From Aliiroseovarius halocynthiae (lineage in GTDB: Bacteria; Pseudomonadota; Alphaproteobacteria; Rhodobacterales; Rhodobacteraceae), in contig NZ_ML660019.1 of the NCBI RefSeq assembly GCF_007004645.1, positions 1,722,671 to 1,786,670 of the forward strand: a stretch of 64,000 bases of DNA. Reading direction: 5' to 3'. Below are positions 12,738 to 27,674 of the stretch, piece after piece. Made by a program: the position numbers and the translations under genes. The notes under the pieces were generated by a model. It saw nothing but the letters and a program-made list of their open reading frames with translations, did not search any database and was not told the origin of the DNA. Positions within the stretch are counted from its first letter, which is position 1. The number at the start of each line of letters is the position of its first letter.

Positions 12738-13307
12738 TTAACTGAGCTTAGACAATTGCGACTGAAGTTCGGTCAACTGTTTTTTGATCTTGTCCAATTC
12801 GTCCGTGTCACCAGATTTATCCGAGGCTTCATTCGCATCACTGTCCTGCCCCGGACCGGAAGATCCAGAAAAGCCACCCATCATGGCCTTCATAAAGGCC
12901 TCTTGCTGCGCCTGCATGGCTTCGAACCCGGGCATTTTCGCCATCGGATTGCCCATCGTGCCAAAGTTTTCCATCATCTGCGACTGACCATCGCGCAGCA
13001 TTTCAAAGCTGGCCGCCAGAAACTGTGGAACGACGCTTTGGGCTTGCGTTGTGTAGGACCGAACCAGATCTGTCAGTACATCCACGGGCAAGACATTCTC
13101 GCCCCGGCTTTCATGTTCTGCAATGATTTGCAGCAGATACTGTCGCGTCAGATCATCACCCGATTTCAGGTCAATGATCTGCACCTCACGCCCATCGCGG
13201 ATGAACCCCGCAATGTCGTCCAAGGTGACGTAATCGGACGTCTCCGTATTATAGAGCCGCCGACTTGCATATCGCTTGATCAGCAGCGCGTCCTGAGACT
13301 TGTTCAT
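12738..13307 (-). CDS. phaR: Polyhydroxyalkanoate synthesis repressor PhaR
   Basis: PhaR binds both DNA and nascent PHA; in the absence of polymer it represses phasin and its own gene. The 189-residue product has the PHB/PHA accumulation regulator domain (LIKRYASRRLYNTETSDYVT, IAGFIRDGREVQIIDLKSGDDLTR) and the second domain (VRSYTTQAQSVVPQFLAASFEML). It ends in a Ser/Asp/Glu-rich, coiled-coil-like tail. GGAGGTAAT precedes ATG 13307. A TTCTGCACTGCAA element 24 bp upstream of the start is a likely autoregulatory site. Confidence 0.95.
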   Translation of the reverse strand: MNKSQDALLIKRYASRRLYNTETSDYVTLDDIAGFIRDGREVQIIDLKSGDDLTRQYLLQIIAEHESRGENVLPVDVLTDLVRSYTTQAQSVVPQFLAASFEMLRDGQSQMMENFGTMGNPMAKMPGFEAMQAQQEAFMKAMMGGFSGSSGPGQDSDANEASDKSGDTDELDKIKKQLTELQSQLSKLS

Positions 13308-13330
13308 ATTACCTCCCCGCAGATTTTCCT

Positions 13331-13343
13331 TTCTGCACTGCAA
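13331..13343. promoter_or_regulatory. PhaR-type site upstream of phaR
   Basis: TTCTGCACTGCAA contains CTGC-ACT-GCA, close to the CTGC-N3-GCAG pattern reported for PhaR of Paracoccus. The same 13-mer recurs at 43560-43572. Confidence 0.6.
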
Positions 13344-13404
13344 AAGCCTAACAGCGCCGGGCACAAAGGCAAGAGTTTTGCTCAAATTCAACACAACATG
13401 CCCA

Positions 13405-13437
13405 AACGGAAAAGGACGGGCCATTGACCCGTCCTTT
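13405..13437 (-). terminator. Terminator-like hairpin after phaP
   Basis: AAAGGACGGG (13411-13420) pairs perfectly with CCCGTCCTTT (13428-13437). On the minus strand the stem is followed by TTTTCCGTTT, about 45 bp after the phaP stop. Confidence 0.6.
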
Positions 13438-13480
13438 CAGGAATTGCCGGGGGGAGGAAAGCTCCGGCAGAATTTCCTGC

Positions 13481-13924
13481 TTATTTGGCAGTTGCCTTCT
13501 TGGTGGCTTTCGACACTTCGTCGGTGGCTTTCTTGACGGCAGCCTGAGCTTCTTCGCCCAGTTCTTTGCCAGCAGCCATCATCAGTTCAACGGTTTCAGC
13601 CTGAACTTTTTTTGCAACTTCGGCAAAAGCAGCCATGTTCTCGGCGGCCAGCTCAGCCTGAGCCGAAGCGAAGTCGGTCATGGCTTTGGTGTAGTCAGCG
13701 GCGTCTTCTTTGGCAGCAGCAACGTCGCCCATTTTGGCCAAAGTTTCTTTGGTCCATTTGGTCGAGATCTCGGCCGATTTGTCAGCAGCTTGCAAAGCAA
13801 CTTTGGTCATTTTCTCGCCCATAGCAGCTTGGTTTTTGAAAGCGTCTTGGGCAACCGACATGTCCACAGGGAAGTTGGCCATCATGTCCTGGAACATCTT
13901 GGTAAAATCTTGGGTCTTAGTCAT
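13481..13924 (-). CDS. phaP: Phasin (PHA granule-associated protein)
   Basis: A 147-residue, helical, Ala/Lys-rich protein starting MTKTQDFTKMFQDMMANFPV and ending in a lysine/alanine tail, typical of alphaproteobacterial phasins that coat polyhydroxyalkanoate granules and set their size. It lies between phaR and phaC, all on the minus strand. AGGAG precedes ATG 13924; longer in-frame starts upstream have no family support. Two CTGC-N3-GCAG elements 70-106 bp upstream indicate control by PhaR. Confidence 0.9.
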   Translation of the reverse strand: MTKTQDFTKMFQDMMANFPVDMSVAQDAFKNQAAMGEKMTKVALQAADKSAEISTKWTKETLAKMGDVAAAKEDAADYTKAMTDFASAQAELAAENMAAFAEVAKKVQAETVELMMAAGKELGEEAQAAVKKATDEVSKATKKATAK

Positions 13925-13993
13925 CGTATTACTCCTAGAGTATCGGGAGCGCTGGGAGGATGCGCTGTTTTGTTTCTGCACCCAATATGGATG

Positions 13994-14030
13994 CTGCAGC
14001 GCAGCAATTCAAGCTTTTTCTGCACTGCAG
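13994..14030. promoter_or_regulatory. Two PhaR-type sites upstream of phaP
   Basis: CTGC-AGC-GCAG at 13994-14004 and CTGC-ACT-GCAG at 14020-14030 are both exact matches to the CTGC-N3-GCAG pattern, 26 bp apart. PhaR binding is inferred from family knowledge. Confidence 0.7.
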
Positions 14031-14075
14031 CATGTAACACTTTTAAGTTGTTTGCTTCCAAACCCTTATGACCGC

Positions 14076-15881
14076 CTAATCGCGCGATTTTGCAATGACA
14101 TATGTACCGGGCGCAGGCGCCAGCGACTTATGGGACGAATCACCGGGCTGGCGCGCATCCACCTTTTTGCCCGACTTTTTTGCCAGCCATTTGTCCCAAC
14201 GCCCCCACCACGATCCCTCATGGAAGCTGGCAGCGGCATGCCAATCCTCGGGACTGTCAGGCCAGTCGTCGTTGGTATAGTGGCCGTATTTCTTCTTTGT
14301 CGGCGGGTTTACAATGCCCGCGATATGGCCGCTTTCAGACAGGATAAAGGTCTTGTCCTTGCCGGACATCTGCCGCATCCCAGCGTATGATGATTTCCAC
14401 GCCGCGATATGGTCCGTCTCGCAGGCGATGGCGCAGATCGGCGTATCTACATCTGGCAGTGACAGCGTTTCGCCCAGCAACTCGAACCCATCTTCTGCGA
14501 ATTCGTTGCCCACGCACAGCCCGCGCAAATACTCCACCGTCATTTTGGCAGGCAGATTGGTGCTGTCACCATTCCAATAGAGCAAATCAAATGCTGGTGG
14601 GGTCTTTCCCAACATGTAACTGTTGATCGCCGGACCATAGATCAGGTCATTCGGCCGCAAATAAGAAAAGGTGCGCGACATGAAGAAGCTATCCAAATAG
14701 CCGCGTTCCGTGACCTCTTCTTCAATTCCATCGACAAAATCGTCATCCAGAAACACGCCGACCTCGCCCTGATCCGAAAAATCGGTGAGCGTGGTAAAGA
14801 ATGTGGCCGAGTTAATAGACTTGTCCCCACGCTTCTTCATCAATGCCAACGTCAGGGACAGCGTGGTGCCCGCGATGCAATAGCCAACCACGTTCACTTT
14901 CTGCTGGCCGGTGATGTCTTTCACCTCGCGGATCGCAGCCATATAGCCGTCTTCCACATAGTCCCCCAACCCCACATCGCGATAGGATTCATCTGGGTTC
15001 ACCCAGCTGACGACAAACAGTGTATAGCCCTGATCGACGATCCATTTGATCAGACTGTTCTGTGCCTTCAGATCCATAATGTAGAATTTATTGATCCATG
15101 GTGGGAAAATGATCAGCGGCCGCGCGTGCACTTTTTCCGTGGTTGGGGCGTATTGAATCAACTCGATCATACGGTTGCGGAAGACCACCTCGCCCGGCGT
15201 GGTGGCGATGTTGCTACCCACCTCGAACGCGCTTTCATCTACGAGCTTTACCAGAAGTTCACCATCATTGGCTTCCAGATCCGACACGAGGTTTTCAAGC
15301 CCATCCACCAGCGACTGCCCGTTGGTTTCGATGGCGCGTTCCATCGCGTCGGGATTGGTGCCCAGAAAATTGGTCGGGCTCATCATGTCGATCATCTGCT
15401 GGGTAAAGAAATCCAGCCGCTTACGTTCCTCGGCATCCAGCCCCTCGACACCATCCATTGCCTCGGCCATTGCGCCCGATGTGATTTGATATTGCCGCTT
15501 CAGATAGTTGAAATAGGGATGGGTTTGCCAAAGGGGGTTGGTAAAGCGGCGATCCTTGGGGGAGTGATCTTCGGGCGCATTGAAATCGCCAGCCATCAGA
15601 GCAGACTGTGCTTCGACCGCGTGTTCCAGTGTCTTACCCCAAAAGGCCGCCTGCTGTTCGATCATTTTCGCGGGGTTCGCCATCATATCCGACCACATGG
15701 AACTGGCCGCTTTTAGATAAAATTCCTGCCCCGGCCCTTGCAGGCTGGATCGGACGGGTTTGCGGTGTGACATGATTTCGCCAAGGCGGGCAGACAACGC
15801 TTCTATCTTGGCGAGATTCGCGCCCAGTTCGCTTGCTTCCAGCGCCTCTGACGTCGAACTTTCCTTTTGATCTGTTGTCAT
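14076..15881 (-). CDS. phaC: Class I poly(3-hydroxyalkanoate) synthase
   Basis: PhaC polymerises (R)-3-hydroxyacyl-CoA into PHA on the granule surface. The 601-residue length fits class I. The lipase-like box GYCIAGT puts the nucleophile at Cys335. The other members of the triad are an Asp in CETDHIAAW and a His in SGHIAGIVNPP towards the C terminus. Conserved PLIIFPPWINKFYIMDL and PPAFDLLYWNGDSTNLPA are present. GGGGGGA precedes ATG 15881. It is divergent from phaZ, across a 111-bp shared region. Confidence 0.98.
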   Translation of the reverse strand: MTTDQKESSTSEALEASELGANLAKIEALSARLGEIMSHRKPVRSSLQGPGQEFYLKAASSMWSDMMANPAKMIEQQAAFWGKTLEHAVEAQSALMAGDFNAPEDHSPKDRRFTNPLWQTHPYFNYLKRQYQITSGAMAEAMDGVEGLDAEERKRLDFFTQQMIDMMSPTNFLGTNPDAMERAIETNGQSLVDGLENLVSDLEANDGELLVKLVDESAFEVGSNIATTPGEVVFRNRMIELIQYAPTTEKVHARPLIIFPPWINKFYIMDLKAQNSLIKWIVDQGYTLFVVSWVNPDESYRDVGLGDYVEDGYMAAIREVKDITGQQKVNVVGYCIAGTTLSLTLALMKKRGDKSINSATFFTTLTDFSDQGEVGVFLDDDFVDGIEEEVTERGYLDSFFMSRTFSYLRPNDLIYGPAINSYMLGKTPPAFDLLYWNGDSTNLPAKMTVEYLRGLCVGNEFAEDGFELLGETLSLPDVDTPICAIACETDHIAAWKSSYAGMRQMSGKDKTFILSESGHIAGIVNPPTKKKYGHYTNDDWPDSPEDWHAAASFHEGSWWGRWDKWLAKKSGKKVDARQPGDSSHKSLAPAPGTYVIAKSRD

Positions 15882-15992
15882 GAAATGATTTCCCCCCTAT
15901 CCTTTCGCTGTTGCAGCATATCAAAAACCGCATATGTTTATGACTATGCGAATGCAGAAACGAAAAAGCAAAGCCTAATTGAGGGGCAGCAC

Positions 15993-17294
15993 ATGCGTTA
16001 CATGGCGACCTACGACCTGATGGAGACCATCCGAAACACGAATCAGTGGCTTGGTGCGACGGCGGCTGCGATGGGGTCTTACCCCGCAACATCCTTGTTC
16101 CCCAGCCCGATTTTCCAGATGATGGCCGCGTGGGGTGAAGTGACGGAACGCAGCTTTCACCGCATGATTGTAAAGCCCGACTGGGGCATTACCAGCGTGG
16201 TGGCCGAAGATGGCCGCGACCACATGGTTGAGATTGAAAAACTGGTTGAACGCCCCTTCGGTGACCTGATCAAATTCAATGTTCTAGGTCGCCCGGAAAA
16301 GGCCCGCCGCGTGATGCTGGTTGCGCCGATGTCAGGCCACTATGCAACCTTGCTGCGCTCTACCGTTGCAAGCCTTCTTCCCGACGCTGAAGTTTATGTG
16401 ACCGACTGGCACAATGCCCGTGATATTCCGGTCAGCAAAGGCAAGTTCGACGTCGAGGATTACACCCTCTATCTTGTTGATTTCATGCGACACCTTGGTC
16501 CAGACGTCAACATCGTTGCGGTTTGCCAGCCTGCCCCGCTGACACTGGCTGCCACGGCCTATCTGGCCGAGATTGACCCCGAGGCGCAGCCCCAAACGAT
16601 GACCCTTATCGGGGGCCCGATTGACCCAGATGCTGCGGCCACTGACGTGACCGACTTTGGCCACCGCGTAACGATGGGGCAACTGGAAGAGACAGCAATC
16701 CAGCGTGTTGGTTTCAAATATGCTGGCGCAGGCCGTTTGGTTTACCCTGGCCTTCTGCAACTCGCGGGTTTCATGTCGATGAATGCCGAAACGCACTCGA
16801 AAGCATTTGCCGACCAGGTAATGCGCGCCGCTAAGGGTGAAGCGTCGGACCATGACAAACACAACCGGTTCTATGACGAATATCTTGCCGTGATGGATAT
16901 GACCGCCGAATTCTATCTGTCCACCGTCGAACGCATCTTCAAAAATGGCGAGATCGCGAAGAACCAATTTGTTGTCGATGGTCACAAGATCGATATTGGA
17001 AAGATCACAGATGTTGCGGTCAAAACCGTTGAAGGGTCCAACGATGACATCAGTGCGCCGGGCCAATGTGTCGCCGCACTGGACATGTTGACCGGCCTAT
17101 CCGACGACAAAAAGGCCAGCCATCTTGAGGAAGGCGCAGGCCATTACGGGATTTTCGCGGGCAAAAGCTGGCGTAACAATATCCGCCCGCTTGTGTTGGA
17201 GTTCATTGATCAGAACGCTGGGCGGCATGCCGCCCAAGCCGCCAAGAAAAAAGCGTCCAAGAAGAAGCCAGTTAAGATCAAAGCGGTCAGCTAA
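15993..17294 (+). CDS. phaZ: Intracellular polyhydroxyalkanoate depolymerase
   Basis: PhaZ degrades the stored polymer inside the cell. The 433-residue product belongs to the intracellular PHB depolymerase family: MRYMATYDLMETIRNTNQWL at the start, VMLVAPMSGHYATLLRSTV, YVTDWHNARDIPVSKGKFDV, and VAVCQPAPLTLAA with the presumed nucleophile Cys178. It ends in a lysine-rich tail that could bind granules or DNA. GAGGGG precedes ATG 15993. It is divergent from phaC, so the shared region probably regulates synthesis and breakdown together. A terminator follows. Confidence 0.95.
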   Translation: MRYMATYDLMETIRNTNQWLGATAAAMGSYPATSLFPSPIFQMMAAWGEVTERSFHRMIVKPDWGITSVVAEDGRDHMVEIEKLVERPFGDLIKFNVLGRPEKARRVMLVAPMSGHYATLLRSTVASLLPDAEVYVTDWHNARDIPVSKGKFDVEDYTLYLVDFMRHLGPDVNIVAVCQPAPLTLAATAYLAEIDPEAQPQTMTLIGGPIDPDAAATDVTDFGHRVTMGQLEETAIQRVGFKYAGAGRLVYPGLLQLAGFMSMNAETHSKAFADQVMRAAKGEASDHDKHNRFYDEYLAVMDMTAEFYLSTVERIFKNGEIAKNQFVVDGHKIDIGKITDVAVKTVEGSNDDISAPGQCVAALDMLTGLSDDKKASHLEEGAGHYGIFAGKSWRNNIRPLVLEFIDQNAGRHAAQAAKKKASKKKPVKIKAVS

Positions 17295-20722: not shown

Positions 20723-22669
20723 ATGAGCCAGATTTCCCTTACATTCCCCGATGGCAATGCGCGCGCGTACGACGCAGGCGTCACCCCTGCCGACGTCGCT
20801 GCCAGCATTTCCAACTCGCTGGCCAAGAAGGCTATCTCCGCCACAGTAAATGGGTCCCACTGGGACCTGCAATGGCCGATCACTGATGATGCGGACATCG
20901 CGATCCACACGATGAAAGACGCCGATCAGGCACTGGAATTGATCCGCCACGACTTTGCCCACGTGATGGCACGTGCCGTGCAAGAGATCTGGCCGGACGT
21001 CAAAGTCACCATCGGCCCGGTCATCGACAATGGCTGGTATTATGACTTCGACCGGGAAGAACCGTTCACGCCCGAAGATCTGGGCGCGATCGAAGCCAAG
21101 ATGAAAGAGATCATCAACAAGCGCGATCCGGTCACGACCGAAATCTGGGAACGTGACCGTGCGGTGAAATTCTACGAGGCCAACAACGAACCTTATAAGG
21201 TCGAGCTGATCGAAGCCATTCCGGGCGACGAGCCGCTGCGCATGTATTGGCATGGGCATTGGCAGGATCTCTGCCGTGGTCCGCACCTGCAGCACACGGG
21301 CCAACTGCCCGCTGACGCGTTCAAACTGATGAGCGTGGCAGGTGCCTATTGGCGTGGCGACAGCGACCGCGCGATGCTGCAGCGTATCTATGGCGTGGCC
21401 TTCCAGAACAAGGACGGGTTGAAGAAACACCTGCACATGTTGGAAGAGGCCGCCAAGCGCGACCACCGCAAGCTGGGCAAGGAAATGAACCTGTTCCACA
21501 TGCAGGAAGAGGCCCCCGGTCAGGTGTTCTGGCACCCGAACGGCTGGACCATTTATACCGAGCTGCAGGACTATATGCGCCGCCAGCAACGCAAGGGCGG
21601 CTATGTCGAGGTGAACACCCCGCAAGTAGTAGACCGCAAACTGTGGATCGCGTCGGGTCACTGGGACAAGTATCAAGAAAACATGTTCATCGTTGAGGTG
21701 GACGAAGATCACGCACGCGAAAAGGCCGTGAACGCGCTGAAGCCTATGAACTGCCCCTGCCACGTACAGGTGTTCAATCAGGGTCTCAAATCCTATCGCG
21801 ACCTGCCCTTGCGCATGGCCGAGTTCGGATCATGTGCGCGCTATGAACCGTCGGGGGCTCTGCACGGGATCATGCGGGTACGCGGGTTTACACAGGATGA
21901 CGGGCACATCTTCTGTACCGAGGATCAGATCACCGACGAAACCGCACGTTTCATCGAATTCCTGTCCAAGGTCTATGCAGATCTGGGCTTCCACAACTGG
22001 ACCATCAAGCTGTCGACCCGCCCGGAAAAGCGCATCGGTGAAGATGAAAGCTGGGACCGCGTGGAAAAGGCTCTTGGGGATGCCTGTAATGCAGCGGGCT
22101 ATGAATATGAGATCCTTGAGGGTGAAGGGGCATTTTATGGACCGAAGCTTGAATTCACCCTGACCGATGCCATCGGCCGCGACTGGCAATGTGGCACGCT
22201 GCAGGTGGACCCCTTCCTGCCGGAACGTCTGGACGCGACCTATGTCGGCGAAGACGGCGCCAAGCACCGCCCGGTCATGTTGCACCGCGCGACGCTGGGT
22301 TCGTTCGAACGGTTTATCGGCATTCTGATCGAAGAACACGCAGGCAAGCTGCCCTTCTGGTTGGCTCCGCGTCAGGTGGTTGTGGCCTCGATCGTGTCGG
22401 ATGCGGATGATTATGTGCACAAGGTCGTCGAGACCCTGAAAGCACAAGGCATCCGGGCAGAGGCCGACATCCGAAACGAGAAGATCAACTATAAGGTCCG
22501 CGAACACTCGGTCGGCAAAGTACCGGTCATTCTGGCTGTTGGCATGAACGAGGTCGAAGAGGGCACCGTGTCAATGCGTCGTCTGGGTGAAAAGCACTCG
22601 AAAGTGCTGCCACTGGACGAGGTTGCCACGGGTCTGGCCAAGGAAGCGACTGCTCCTGATCTGGCCTAA
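20723..22669 (+). CDS. thrS: Threonyl-tRNA synthetase
   Basis: Charges tRNA-Thr. The 648-residue protein has the TGS domain ([23 protein letters not shown]), the editing domain with [16 protein letters not shown] and [12 protein letters not shown], the class II catalytic core ([65 protein letters not shown]), and the anticodon-binding domain ([20 protein letters not shown]). AGGAGC precedes ATG 20723, and the family start matches. No T-box is seen. A strong terminator follows the gene. Confidence 0.99.
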
Positions 22670-22687: not shown

Positions 22688-22723
22688 AAAGCGCCCTTTG
22701 ACCCGGTCAGAGGGCGCTTTTTT
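22688..22723 (+). terminator. Rho-independent terminator of thrS
   Basis: AAAGCGCCCT pairs with AGGGCGCTTT, with an inner TGACC/GGTCA pairing at the tip, followed by a T-run, 18 bp after the thrS stop. Confidence 0.9.
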
Positions 22724-23083
22724 GTGTGATCCGCTGTTACAATGGCTCACGAAAGACGTGAGCCCCCCTGTGCTGCCCCCCAGAAAACTGTAACATTACA
22801 GAATTTCGCCCGGCTTTCCTTGAAAGATGTGATCGCCGAGGCGGAGAATTTCGTTACAATCCATCACACCACGCCATGGGATAACCTTACGGAAATCCAA
22901 GTTTTACTGACCCTGCGCAATTTTCCCATCCGACCGAAACCTCACGCCCACGTTATAATCTGCTCGCGCTGACATGACAGGACCGTGATCTACGTTTTCG
23001 TGAGTGGAGACGGCCCAGTTCCCCGCTTAGCTTTTCCTTACCGCCAAACGGTGGATCGAATTACAAACCCGAAAGGAAATACG
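22724..23083 (+). promoter_or_regulatory. Repeat-rich leader of the bufferin operon
   Basis: This 360-bp gap lacks a convincing gene. It holds a perfect hairpin GGCTCACG/CGTGAGCC (22744-22764), the palindrome CTGTAA-CA-TTACAG (22788-22801), GTTACAAT twice (22736-22743 and 22853-22860), AGAATTTCG twice (22800-22808 and 22845-22853), and TATAAT at 22954-22959 with no good -35. AAAGGAAAT is the bufA ribosome site. These are candidate operators for an unidentified regulator. Confidence 0.55.
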
Positions 23084-23377
23084 ATGTCGAAAAAAACTGT
23101 AGCCATCCTGGGCGCCGTCACCGCTGCTGTTGCTGCTAACGCTGCTCCTGCTTTTGCTGAAGACAACGAAAAGTGCTTCGGCGTTTCGCTGGCCGGCCAG
23201 AATGACTGTGCAGCTGGTCCCGGTACCACCTGCGCCGGCTCGTCGACCGTCGACTATCAGGGCAACGCATGGAAACTGGTTCCGGCTGGCACCTGCGAAA
23301 CCATGGAAATCACCGATGCAGACGGCAAAAAGCACATGGGTTCGCTGGAAGCGACCGAAATGAACCTGCCCAGCTAA
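23084..23377 (+). CDS. bufA1: BufA1-type periplasmic bufferin precursor (DUF2282)
   Basis: A 97-residue secreted peptide. Residues 1-25 form a signal peptide ending APAFA, and the mature part is small and acidic. It carries four cysteines, C31, C42, C50 and C71, in the order [19 protein letters not shown] and GTCETM, the DUF2282/BufA1 arrangement. Bufferins are ribosomally made peptides whose cysteines are modified by an MNIO enzyme and which bind copper. The following MNIO, DUF2063 and DoxX genes confirm the context. A perfect hairpin separates it from bufB, which probably allows much higher expression of the precursor. Confidence 0.9.
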
Positions 23378-23411
23378 TCCTCAAGGATAAGCTGAACAGT
23401 CCCAAGAACAC

Positions 23412-23441
23412 TGCTTTGGCCAAATTCAATTGGCCAAAGCA
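23412..23441 (+). other. Perfect 12-bp hairpin between bufA1 and bufB
   Basis: TGCTTTGGCCAA pairs exactly with TTGGCCAAAGCA around ATTCAA. No T-run follows. The position, 34 bp after the precursor stop, fits partial attenuation or 3'-end protection of the bufA1 message. Confidence 0.75.
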
Positions 23442-23472
23442 CACTTAAGACATGAACACGAAGGGCTTTGAC

Positions 23473-24351
23473 ATGCTGGATCAACGCAACAATACAACGC
23501 TTCCCGATGGCGCTGGCGTTGGATATAAACCGCAGCATTTCCAAGACCTTCTGCATGCACCCGGTGCCGTCACCTGGCTGGAAATTCACGCCGAGAACTA
23601 TATGAGCGACGGTGGACGCCAGATCGCACAGCTTCGCCATCTGGCCGAGCACTTCCCGATCTCGGTTCATGGCGTGGGTGCTTCAATCGGTGGCGAAAGC
23701 CGGCTGGACCCAGAACATCTGGCCCGACTGAAAAAGCTGGTTGATTGGCTGAACCCGGCCAGTTTTTCAGAACATCTGGCATGGTCGACCCATGACAGCG
23801 CGTTTCTGAACGACCTGCTTCCCCTGCCCTATACAAACGAGACGCTGACCCGCGTCACCTCGCATATTAACGAGGTACAGGATCTGCTGGGCCGCAAGAT
23901 GCTTTTGGAAAACCCGTCCTCATATCTGGCCTTTTCCGAGTCCACGTGGTCCGAACCTGACTTCATCCGCGAGGTTGCCCGCCGCACCGGGTGTGGCCTG
24001 CTTCTGGACGTGAATAACGTGTTCATCTCGGCCACCAATCTCGAATTCAAGGCGCTGGACTATCTGGATGCCTACCCGTTGGAACTGGTCGAGGAAATCC
24101 ACCTTGCCGGACATGACGAAGACGCAGACGAGCTGGGCCGCAAGCTGTTGATCGACAGCCATGGCAAACCGGTGGACGAGCCTGTCTGGGCCCTGTTTGA
24201 CCACGTCATCGCCCGCACTGGCGCGCGCCCGGCCCTGATCGAATGGGATAATGACGTGCCAGAATGGGACGAGTTGGAAAACGAAGCAGCCCGTGCCATC
24301 GCACAGATGGAGCACGTCATCGCAGATCAAGCCCAACGGGTGTCAGCATGA
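23473..24351 (+). CDS. bufB: MNIO family (DUF692) bufferin maturase
   Basis: About 292 residues from ATG 23473, which follows GAAGGG; an ATG at 23452 is possible but lacks a ribosome site. This is a multinuclear non-haem iron-dependent oxidase of TIM-barrel type. Metal-binding motifs appear in order: WLEIHAENYM, SVHGVGASIGG, FSEHLAW, MLLENPSSYLAF, LLLDVNNVFISATNL, EIHLAGHDED, DSHGKPVDEPV and ALIEWDNDVPEW. Such enzymes oxidise cysteines of the precursor into heterocycles, here presumably in BufA1. Its stop overlaps bufC. Confidence 0.93.
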   Translation: MLDQRNNTTLPDGAGVGYKPQHFQDLLHAPGAVTWLEIHAENYMSDGGRQIAQLRHLAEHFPISVHGVGASIGGESRLDPEHLARLKKLVDWLNPASFSEHLAWSTHDSAFLNDLLPLPYTNETLTRVTSHINEVQDLLGRKMLLENPSSYLAFSESTWSEPDFIREVARRTGCGLLLDVNNVFISATNLEFKALDYLDAYPLELVEEIHLAGHDEDADELGRKLLIDSHGKPVDEPVWALFDHVIARTGARPALIEWDNDVPEWDELENEAARAIAQMEHVIADQAQRVSA

Positions 24352-25133
24352 CCCAAAGCTCGCTCATCAAGACACCATCGCGCACGACCGTCTCGCAAAG
24401 CGCGTTCCGCACCGCGATCCTGAACGCGCAGGCCGACGTGCCCGAAGGGTTGGTCAATCCCGATGGCCAGCAGGCATCAAAACGCTTCTCGGTCTATCGC
24501 AACAATGTAGTGCACAGTCTGTCTGAAGCGATGCTGACCGGCTTCCCGGTTTTGGCCAAGCTGCTGGGTGACGAGTTCTTTCGCGAGATGGCGAAGGTCT
24601 ATCTGCGGATCCATCCGCCAACATCGCAACTCATGATGCATTACGGCGCGGCCCTGCCCGGCTTTCTGGAAAGCTTCCCCGGTACGCTGCATTTGAAATA
24701 CCTGCCCGATGTAGCCCGGTTAGAGCTTGCCCTGCGCCGCGCTTATCACGCGGGCGATGCAGATCCCATTGATCCGGCAGCTTTAACCGAACTGGATCAG
24801 CACGAGCTGATGGAGGCGCATCTGACCCTCGCCCCGGCCTGCGAAGTATTGCAAGCCAAATGGCCAGCCAAGTCGATCTGGGACTTCAATATGGCCGACG
24901 GCCCGCAACCCAATGTCGGCGCCGAGGATATTCTGATTTCGCGGATTGGGTTCGAACCGCGCACCTATCTGCTGCCCGACGGCGCGGCCGAATTCATCAC
25001 GTCCCTTCTGAAGCGCCGCAGCTTCGGCACCTCGCTGGGGCTGGCCACGTCGAACACCCCGGATTTCGATTTGGCGGCCACGTTAACGATCTTGATCGCG
25101 GCACAGGCTATAACCGGCATAGACCGGAAATAA
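24348..25133 (+). CDS. bufC: BufC/HvfC-type MNIO partner protein (DUF2063)
   Basis: A 261-residue protein of the DUF2063 family, which regularly accompanies MNIO maturases and is thought to present the precursor peptide to them. The N-terminal domain has QSAFRTAILN, RFSVYRNNVVHSLSEAMLTGFPVLAKLLGDEFF and LPDVARLELALRRAYHA. A C-terminal domain ends TPDFDLAATLTILIAAQAI. It is coupled to bufB by an ATGA overlap, consistent with a one-to-one complex. An upstream start at 24264 inside bufB was rejected. Confidence 0.9.
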   Translation: MTQSSLIKTPSRTTVSQSAFRTAILNAQADVPEGLVNPDGQQASKRFSVYRNNVVHSLSEAMLTGFPVLAKLLGDEFFREMAKVYLRIHPPTSQLMMHYGAALPGFLESFPGTLHLKYLPDVARLELALRRAYHAGDADPIDPAALTELDQHELMEAHLTLAPACEVLQAKWPAKSIWDFNMADGPQPNVGAEDILISRIGFEPRTYLLPDGAAEFITSLLKRRSFGTSLGLATSNTPDFDLAATLTILIAAQAITGIDRK

Positions 25134-25154
25134 TGAAGAAGGAAGGACATCACC

Positions 25155-25703
25155 ATGCAAGCCTTGGTGCACATTCATAACCGGCTGGCCAGACTGGCTG
25201 ATCGCGCGGCACCCGAAGCCCTGCCCCTGTTGGCGCGCTTTACATTCGCCGCGACGCTTCTGGGATATTTCTGGGCCTCGGCGTTGACCAAGGTTGGACC
25301 GGGTCTTTTCGGGATCTTCAAACCATCGCTGGGCGCTTATGCTCAGATCTTCCCCAAAGCGATGGAGGCCGCCAGCTATAACGTCGGCGATCTTAGCTTC
25401 TTTCACTGGGCGGTCGTCTTTGCAGGCACCGTGGCCGAGTTCGTCCTGCCGTTGTTGATCGTGATCGGGTTGTTCACCCGTCTGGCGTCGCTGGGAATGA
25501 TCGGATTCGTTATCGTGCAAAGCCTAACAGACCTTTATGGGCATGGCGGTATCGAACATGCAGAAGCGCTGGGTGCGTGGTTCGACCGGATCCCTGACAG
25601 CCTTATTCTGGATCAACGCCTGCTCTGGGTGGTCATCCTGCTGATCCCCGTCCTGAAAGGTGCAGGTGCACTGTCTGTGGATCGTCTTATTAGACTTAAG
25701 TAA
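25155..25703 (+). CDS. DoxX family membrane protein
   Basis: A 182-residue inner-membrane protein with about four hydrophobic segments (LLARFTFAATLLGYFWASAL, WAVVFAGTVAEFVLPLLIVI, LGMIGFVIVQSLTDLYGHGG, LLWVVILLIPVLKGAGALSV), of the DoxX/DoxD type. DoxX genes are common fourth members of bufferin/gig operons, and a redox or electron-transfer role at the membrane is suspected but unproven. AAGGAAGGA lies upstream of ATG 25155, 21 bp after bufC. A strong terminator ends the operon. Confidence 0.85.
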   Translation: MQALVHIHNRLARLADRAAPEALPLLARFTFAATLLGYFWASALTKVGPGLFGIFKPSLGAYAQIFPKAMEAASYNVGDLSFFHWAVVFAGTVAEFVLPLLIVIGLFTRLASLGMIGFVIVQSLTDLYGHGGIEHAEALGAWFDRIPDSLILDQRLLWVVILLIPVLKGAGALSVDRLIRLK

Positions 25704-25724: not shown

Positions 25725-25756
25725 GAAAGGGCGCCGGGGTGGGCGCCCTTTCTTTA
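25725..25756. terminator. Bidirectional terminator between the buf operon and the NCS2 permease
   Basis: GAAAGGGCGCC pairs with GGCGCCCTTTC around GGGGTG, with T residues on the right side. It lies between two convergent genes. Confidence 0.85.
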
Positions 25757-27314: not shown

Positions 27315-27674
27315 TTAGTGTGGGTCGGGCCGAAGGGCAGCCAATGCCAAGATGCCACCTAGCGCGGCCAACGCGATCGGGAACATGGTGAAGACACCAT
27401 ACCCAAATGCAAAATACATCCCAGCTGCCGAGGCAAGCATCAGCCCGCCGCCGATCTGTGCAACAGACCGTGCCATCGCGCCTCCTGCCAGCGCCAACAA
27501 CGGCGCGATCAAGGCAAACGCGCGTATGCGACCGGGGTTCTCGACCTGCTCAGCCAGATCCGGAACCTCGCCAAACCGGTCGATCACTTCCGTATACCCA
27601 TATCCAAAAAATCCGACGATCATGCCCAGCACACCTGCAATCACACCCAAAACCAACGCGGCATTACGCATCAT
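27315..27674 (-). CDS. Small four-helix membrane protein, function unknown
   Basis: A 119-residue protein with four hydrophobic segments: AALVLGVIAGVLGMIVGFFG, a short polar loop (VIDRFGEVPDLAEQVENPGR), then ALIAPLLALAGGAMA, GGLMLASAAGMYFAF and FPIALAALGGILALAAL. I do not recognise the family. GGAGATAT precedes ATGATG at 27674. It stands alone between the ArsC-like gene upstream and its own terminator downstream, so it is probably a single-gene unit or a short operon with the ArsC-like gene (33-bp gap). Confidence 0.75.
   Translation of the reverse strand: MMRNAALVLGVIAGVLGMIVGFFGYGYTEVIDRFGEVPDLAEQVENPGRIRAFALIAPLLALAGGAMARSVAQIGGGLMLASAAGMYFAFGYGVFTMFPIALAALGGILALAALRPDPH

Follow-up and report, generated by a model that had tools for sequence, protein, structure and literature searches.

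A canonical Buf1-type bufferin operon of Aliiroseovarius halocynthiae and its apparent control by an undescribed DNA site in place of the Caulobacter sigma-F system

Among the closest described systems is the sigma-F-dependent gene set CC3254-CC3255-CC3256-CC3257 of Caulobacter vibrioides, which holds the same families as the locus considered here, in the order DUF2282, DUF692 (MNIO), DUF2063 and DoxX, and in that organism sigma-F and its negative regulator are encoded adjacent, according to the accessible part of the report (PMC3511200). DUF2282 is the family called Buf1 by Antoine et al. (2025; PMC12452194), whose accessible text gives Buf1 bufferins four conserved cysteines and a core set of precursor, MNIO, DUF2063 protein and DoxX, as in our locus; the legend to Fig. 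3 in the same source has the central cysteines modified and the outer two joined in a disulphide. Fontiphorin, oxazolin and gonophorin, the EGKCG captophorins, also depend on an MNIO and a DUF2063 partner acting on precursor cysteines, with 5-thiooxazole as the reported product, but they carry Lys-Cys repeats where our precursor has the four-cysteine DUF2282 domain (PMC13097082, accessible sections). The characterised relatives covered by these sources carry a thiooxazole derived from Cys, and copper is the metal they bind (PMC12452194, PMC13097082). Methanobactin (MbnABC) likewise arises from an MNIO and a partner working on precursor cysteines.

The stretch analysed here, 64,000 nucleotides of Aliiroseovarius halocynthiae and referred to below as the window, contains at 23084-25703 what is, judged by sequence, a canonical Buf1-type bufferin operon of four genes on the plus strand (Table 1). 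The genes follow one another as DUF2282 precursor, MNIO maturase, DUF2063 partner and DoxX, each lying where an earlier note on this DNA had placed it, and the set is not a product of chance, because its gene order is kept in relatives. That note's reading of the four genes as a complete bufferin operon is borne out by family matches, ligand alignment and cysteine spacing, and the encoded proteins form a further member of a known family. Across the host genome, MNIO, DUF2282 and DoxX were each matched once.

Table 1. Features of the bufferin locus and its upstream neighbour, in window positions.
Feature	Position	Strand	Basis
thrS (threonyl-tRNA synthetase), conserved upstream neighbour, outside the operon	20723..22669	+	Pfam; upstream of bufA in 40 of 60 relatives' loci (fetched stretches)
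Likely thrS terminator, stem-loop then T run	22688..22720	+	inverted repeat 22688-22703/22705-22720
Second, upstream palindrome TCACG-N5-CGTGA	22747..22761	+	counterparts in many loci of the genus, judged by eye in the alignment
Conserved promoter element: the palindrome TnACG-N4-CGTGA twice in tandem, followed by TGG	22975..23010	+	footprinting by alignment; scoring tests
Tentative -35 (TGGAGA) and -10 (TAGCTT), 17-nt spacer	23005..23033	+	inferred from alignment
bufA, Buf1 precursor, 97 aa	23084..23377	+	Pfam DUF2282
RNA hairpin with a 12-bp stem between bufA and bufB	23412..23441	+	fold scan; covariation; control count
bufB, MNIO bufferin maturase	23473..24351 (longer ORF from 23452)	+	Pfam, NCBIfam, ligand alignment
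bufC, DUF2063 partner of 261 aa, sharing 4 nt with bufB	24348..25133	+	Pfam
doxX, DoxX-family membrane protein, 182 aa	25155..25703	+	Pfam; alignment
Likely operon terminator, 11-bp stem then TTTATT	25725..25752	+	terminator scan

The precursor matches DUF2282 far above the family cut-off (E 2.8e-25; 88.5 bits, cut-off 22.4). Its cysteines stand at residues 31, 42, 50 and 71, and this 10-7-20 spacing, which had been read as that of BufA1, recurs in 57 of the 61 precursors compared. The N terminus is hydrophobic and includes an AFA motif (read by eye); from this AxA motif, residues 1-25 are likely to be a signal peptide cut after AFA, which would leave a mature peptide of 72 residues with a predicted mass of 7.4 kDa and pI of 4.2. 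The maturase is matched by PF05114 (E 1.3e-103) and by the NCBIfam model MNIO_BufB (NF050167; 376 bits, cut-off 310), and scores under the cut-offs of the HvfB (239.5 bits, cut-off 360), MbnB, ApyH and ChrH models. We place its start at the methionine of MLDQ... (23473) because several relatives begin with MLD, and this start is probably the correct one. The iron ligands of TglH, given in the accessible part of PMC10880893 as His71, His107, Glu151, Asp184, Asn187, His216, Asp229, His231 and Glu258, align with residues 73, 108, 153, 186, 189, 217, 235, 237 and 264 of the window protein, and all nine positions are identical in 60 of 60 MNIO sequences (the window and 59 of the 60 loci of relatives, the truncated L051 being left out), in agreement with the earlier claim that every hallmark motif is present. 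Asp266, two residues past the last ligand, is also invariant in the 60 sequences, and it may be the counterpart of FonB-Asp249, the catalytic base proposed in the accessible text of PMC13097082.

The same models bear on the idea that the peptide serves to take up copper in the manner of methanobactin, rather than to sequester it. Cysteine heterocycles made by an MNIO are indeed common to methanobactin, and the window enzyme does match MbnB weakly, but it reaches just 60.8 bits against a cut-off of 325, far below threshold, whereas the BufB model is exceeded; the precursor and partner are DUF2282 and DUF2063 proteins, the operon has no transporter gene, and for related pathways the reported inducers are excess copper, gold or oxidative stress (PMC13097082, accessible sections). 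We therefore give acquisition very little credence.

The partner BufC matches DUF2063 (E 7.2e-24), and the NCBIfam HvfC model under its cut-off only. The DoxX match is marginal (24.7 bits, cut-off 23.6), and an alignment of 22 DoxX sequences, the window's and those of 21 loci with a match, holds 16 invariant columns; the columns conserved in at least 90% of these sequences include His130, Asp144 and Asp153. Three stretches of the window DoxX, residues 50-61, 126-137 and 143-152, are additional to what the class relatives L084 and L086 have, and they would face the periplasm if the N terminus is cytoplasmic. A search by sequence turned up no solved structure for BufA, for the DUF2063 partner or for DoxX. 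Of what had been declared open for this operon, the chemistry and the metal are less so than was thought, the accessible accounts of relatives pointing to a Cys-derived thiooxazole and to copper (PMC12452194, PMC13097082). It could nonetheless be argued that the system is a bufferin by descent whose main job concerns another metal (gold, cadmium or chromate) or oxidative or sulphur stress, with DoxX acting in a redox or thiol system: sigma-F targets of Caulobacter respond to chromate and cadmium (PMC3511200), doxX has been suggested to point to other stresses (PMC12452194), in both cases as far as the accessible text goes, and no copper-specific Pfam family was noticed among the 47 window ORFs scanned. 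Against this, the family and residues in the window are canonical, and the bufferins and fontiphorin reported in the available sections of PMC12452194 and PMC13097082 bind copper, so that we hold a principal role outside copper to be unlikely.

The operon is also not rare: a DUF2282 match occurs in 71 of 121 genomes (the host's own and 120 relatives), including 20 of the 21 genomes of the genus, own counted. Linkage to thrS was found in 18 of the 19 loci from the genus (the remaining one starts at a contig end), in 22 of 32 other loci of the family, and in 0 of 9 from the rest of the class. The sole genus genome without bufA (G012) is also without an MNIO match; there thrS is followed by an ArsC-like gene, and operon and promoter element are missing together. 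In one locus (L057, 2993-3491; G027:C18) two DUF2282 matches lie a few hundred bases apart, a tandem precursor arrangement. Elsewhere in the window, a 119-aa protein at 27315-27674 without a Pfam match adjoins an ArsC-family gene, and several relatives have similar proteins at this position; 12738-17291 holds ordinary PHB granule genes (a PHB accumulation regulator, PhaC and a PHB depolymerase). The terminator scan did not report the thrS stem-loop at 22688..22720; the site it placed after doxX is one of 4 terminator-like sites in the scanned stretch, where shuffles lead one to expect 3.2.

The less ordinary parts of the locus, a promoter element and an intercistronic hairpin, were absent from the earlier note's list. 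In the genus alignment of the gap before bufA, one block is far better conserved than its surroundings. The genus pattern was scored on other loci as well, and 29 chosen loci gave the consensus TnACG-N4-CGTGA-nn-cACG-N4-CGTGA-n-TGG, with its two palindromes 15 bp apart. The element starts 106-168 nt before bufA across loci, and about 110 nt before it in the window. The promoter scan did not report the tentative -35/-10 pair at 23005..23033. Farther upstream, a GTTACAAT....TCAC motif is repeated at window 22736-22750 and 22853-22867 and is partly conserved in the genus; it could be a second regulator site.

Each half of the element could fold into a 5-bp stem with a 4-nt loop, and two small RNA hairpins in the leader would thus be conceivable. 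This candidate was rejected and is in our judgment very improbable: 79.3% of the element's cells pair across relatives, which equals the shuffled mean of 79.3%, unlike the intercistronic hairpin described below. As the pair counts lend no support to RNA pairing in the element, a DNA-binding dimer is the simplest reading, and the element is most likely bound by a putative dimeric transcription factor at or beside the -35 region. No regulator gene lies inside the operon, and in ORF lists read by eye no regulator gene shared near the operon was found among 12 loci and 6 further ones, in five of which the element is weak or absent; single loci have what we take to be regulator-like ORFs (LysR-like in L053, AraC-like in L054). 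Our literature search found no description of the element or of bufferin control in the Roseobacter group, and the words "promoter" and "operator" each occur 0 times, and element and hairpin go undescribed, in the text of PMC12452194 as far as it was accessible; the control region is in this sense a variant without a description in the literature searched.

How this element relates to the sigma-F control of Caulobacter was judged through NrsF, the anti-sigma partner of sigma-F and the sole component of that system searched. NrsF was matched in 22 of the 121 genomes (21 over the cut-off); the host genome gave no match at E 0.001, and the Caulobacter control genome does match. When a pattern derived from the genus was scored on the 32 family loci outside it, with a threshold of at least 16 of 27 matches, the element was present in 20 of 24 NrsF-negative loci and in 0 of 8 NrsF-positive ones (Fisher p 4.7e-5, a value that overstates independence, as element and NrsF partly follow the tree and descent is uncorrected). 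Shuffles reach a score of at least 16 in about 2.5% of cases and of 18 in 0.03%. The four NrsF-negative loci below the threshold are L057, L062, L063 and L071, and L065 passes at 16 yet does not stand out clearly from shuffles of its own sequence (p 0.055).

What stands before bufA in the NrsF genomes is GTAAC-N15..18-CG(A/T), which we take to be the sigma-F promoter motif. It was found in 11 of 11 NrsF-positive loci (8 of the family and 3 of the wider class), where shuffles lead one to expect 0.235 of 11, and in 2 of the 49 other loci, a count that is not blind, the pattern having been fixed after GTAAC was seen in several of the same loci. In one of the two exceptions, L075, the match overlaps the element itself. 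The whole thrS-bufA gap of the window has no match to the pattern, with a lone GTAAC at 22790, 294 nt upstream of bufA. The window genome thus differs from Caulobacter both in having no NrsF match and in the element that precedes bufA. Both labels cluster on a tree built from 49 of 60 MNIO sequences, where the element requires at least 6 changes and NrsF at least 5. L059 (G030), which has NrsF and a sigma-F-like site, falls with moderate support within the thrS-linked loci that carry the element, and this position suggests at least one separate exchange of control. L059 and L077 (G059), NrsF loci that branch inside or beside element loci in the tree, would be apt for studying such an exchange.

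The element occupies the place that the sigma-F-like site has in NrsF genomes, and it may be asked whether it is itself the promoter of another alternative sigma factor rather than an operator. Its distance of 106-168 nt from bufA and a first half that begins with TnAC, as the -35 site of an ECF factor might, lend some weight to this. The usual spacer of ECF promoters is, however, shorter than the distance from TnAC to the last CGTGA, and the element is built of two symmetric palindromes, spaced by 15 bp, between which bases of the would-be spacer are conserved. We regard such a promoter as rather improbable, and continue to prefer a dimeric transcription factor. In the bacterial group of the host, the bufferin set appears, from these comparisons, to be switched by an undescribed DNA site instead of the sigma-F system known in Caulobacter.

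An exact 17-base core pattern gave 76 matches in a contig scan of the whole collection (described as 84,980 species), of which 37 sit 100-134 bp before a bufA, and the remaining 39 come from a scatter of unrelated taxa. The records behind these 37 are, we presume, Rhodobacterales, mostly of the Roseobacter group, save one labelled Enemella evansiae. Mechanical ORFs of at least 150 aa cover 32 of the 39 matches away from bufA, and ORF cover alone decides nothing, because 11 of the 37 bufA sites also fall in such ORFs. Five Methylocystis records share one core match inside an ORF. Five Psychrobacter records (L141, L152, L155, L168 and L186) share one exact intergenic core match (6559-6582 in L141, 2232-2255 in L152), which in L152 precedes an M48-protease-like ORF, ORFs being listed in two of the five records; no bufA match was found at the site, no tRNA in L141, L152 or L168, and no Rfam match in L141 or L152.

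A profile of the 36 positions of the element (R1) was searched in 12 genomes, 9 with bufA and 3 without, the best 150 candidates being scored in each. Its best match was the bufA promoter in all nine bufA-bearing genomes (E 3e-7 to 2e-5), an outcome by construction, as the sequences of most searched genomes are in the profile. Among the 150 candidates per genome, none of the nine has a second site near the bufA promoter's score, the next best being at E 0.005 (G004), and the three genomes without bufA have best values of 0.002, 0.08 and 0.09. As candidates for other strong regulon targets, the next-best matches in a gamma-carbonic-anhydrase-like ORF (orthologous, in L102 and L106) and in a long ORF (L117) were rejected and taken as chance; that of L105 lies in no ORF of at least 80 aa.

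The hairpin between bufA and bufB has no T run after it on the plus strand. Across 17 same-genus sequences, chosen for bearing the hairpin, 94.6% of cells pair, 7 of the 12 pairs change on both sides, and the covariation score was equalled by 0 of 500 shuffles; the 17 are the 20 genus sequences minus L049 (identical to L045 there) and L033 and L048 (with longer gaps and different best stems). In the unselected count, a perfect stem of at least 9 bp was found in 13 of the 20 loci of the genus, in 16 of the 32 other loci of the family and in 0 of the 9 class loci, where shuffles lead one to expect 0.05, 0.15 and 0.02, respectively. The hairpin may have a role in message stability.

We posit, at a probability of roughly 0.8, that the locus serves Buf1-type buffering of periplasmic copper under a putative dimeric regulator instead of sigma-F. 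The genes and their families are observed; modification, metal and export are proposed by analogy with the relatives. BufA would be made with a Sec signal peptide, and in the cytoplasm BufB, as a multi-iron oxidase, and BufC, presenting the substrate, would oxidise Cys 42 and Cys 50 to thiooxazoles. After export, Cys 31 and Cys 71 would form a disulphide, and the mature peptide would bind excess copper in the periplasm, with DoxX assisting from the inner membrane. The tandem palindromic element would be bound by the putative dimeric factor at or next to the -35 region, and the bufA-bufB hairpin would probably protect or process the message for the precursor, which would then be produced in greater amount than the enzyme.

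A wider proposal, for which we would offer even odds, is that the Roseobacter group has exchanged sigma-F and NrsF for a putative dedicated regulator whose main target is the bufA promoter and which maybe answers to a different signal than in Caulobacter, with the hairpin after bufA setting the ratio of precursor to enzyme. The hairpin offers a testable reason for differing amounts of precursor and maturase from one operon. The element, which stands before bufA in many marine genera and never together with NrsF in the loci tested, could serve as DNA bait for finding the regulator, and hence the natural signal to which these bufferins respond.
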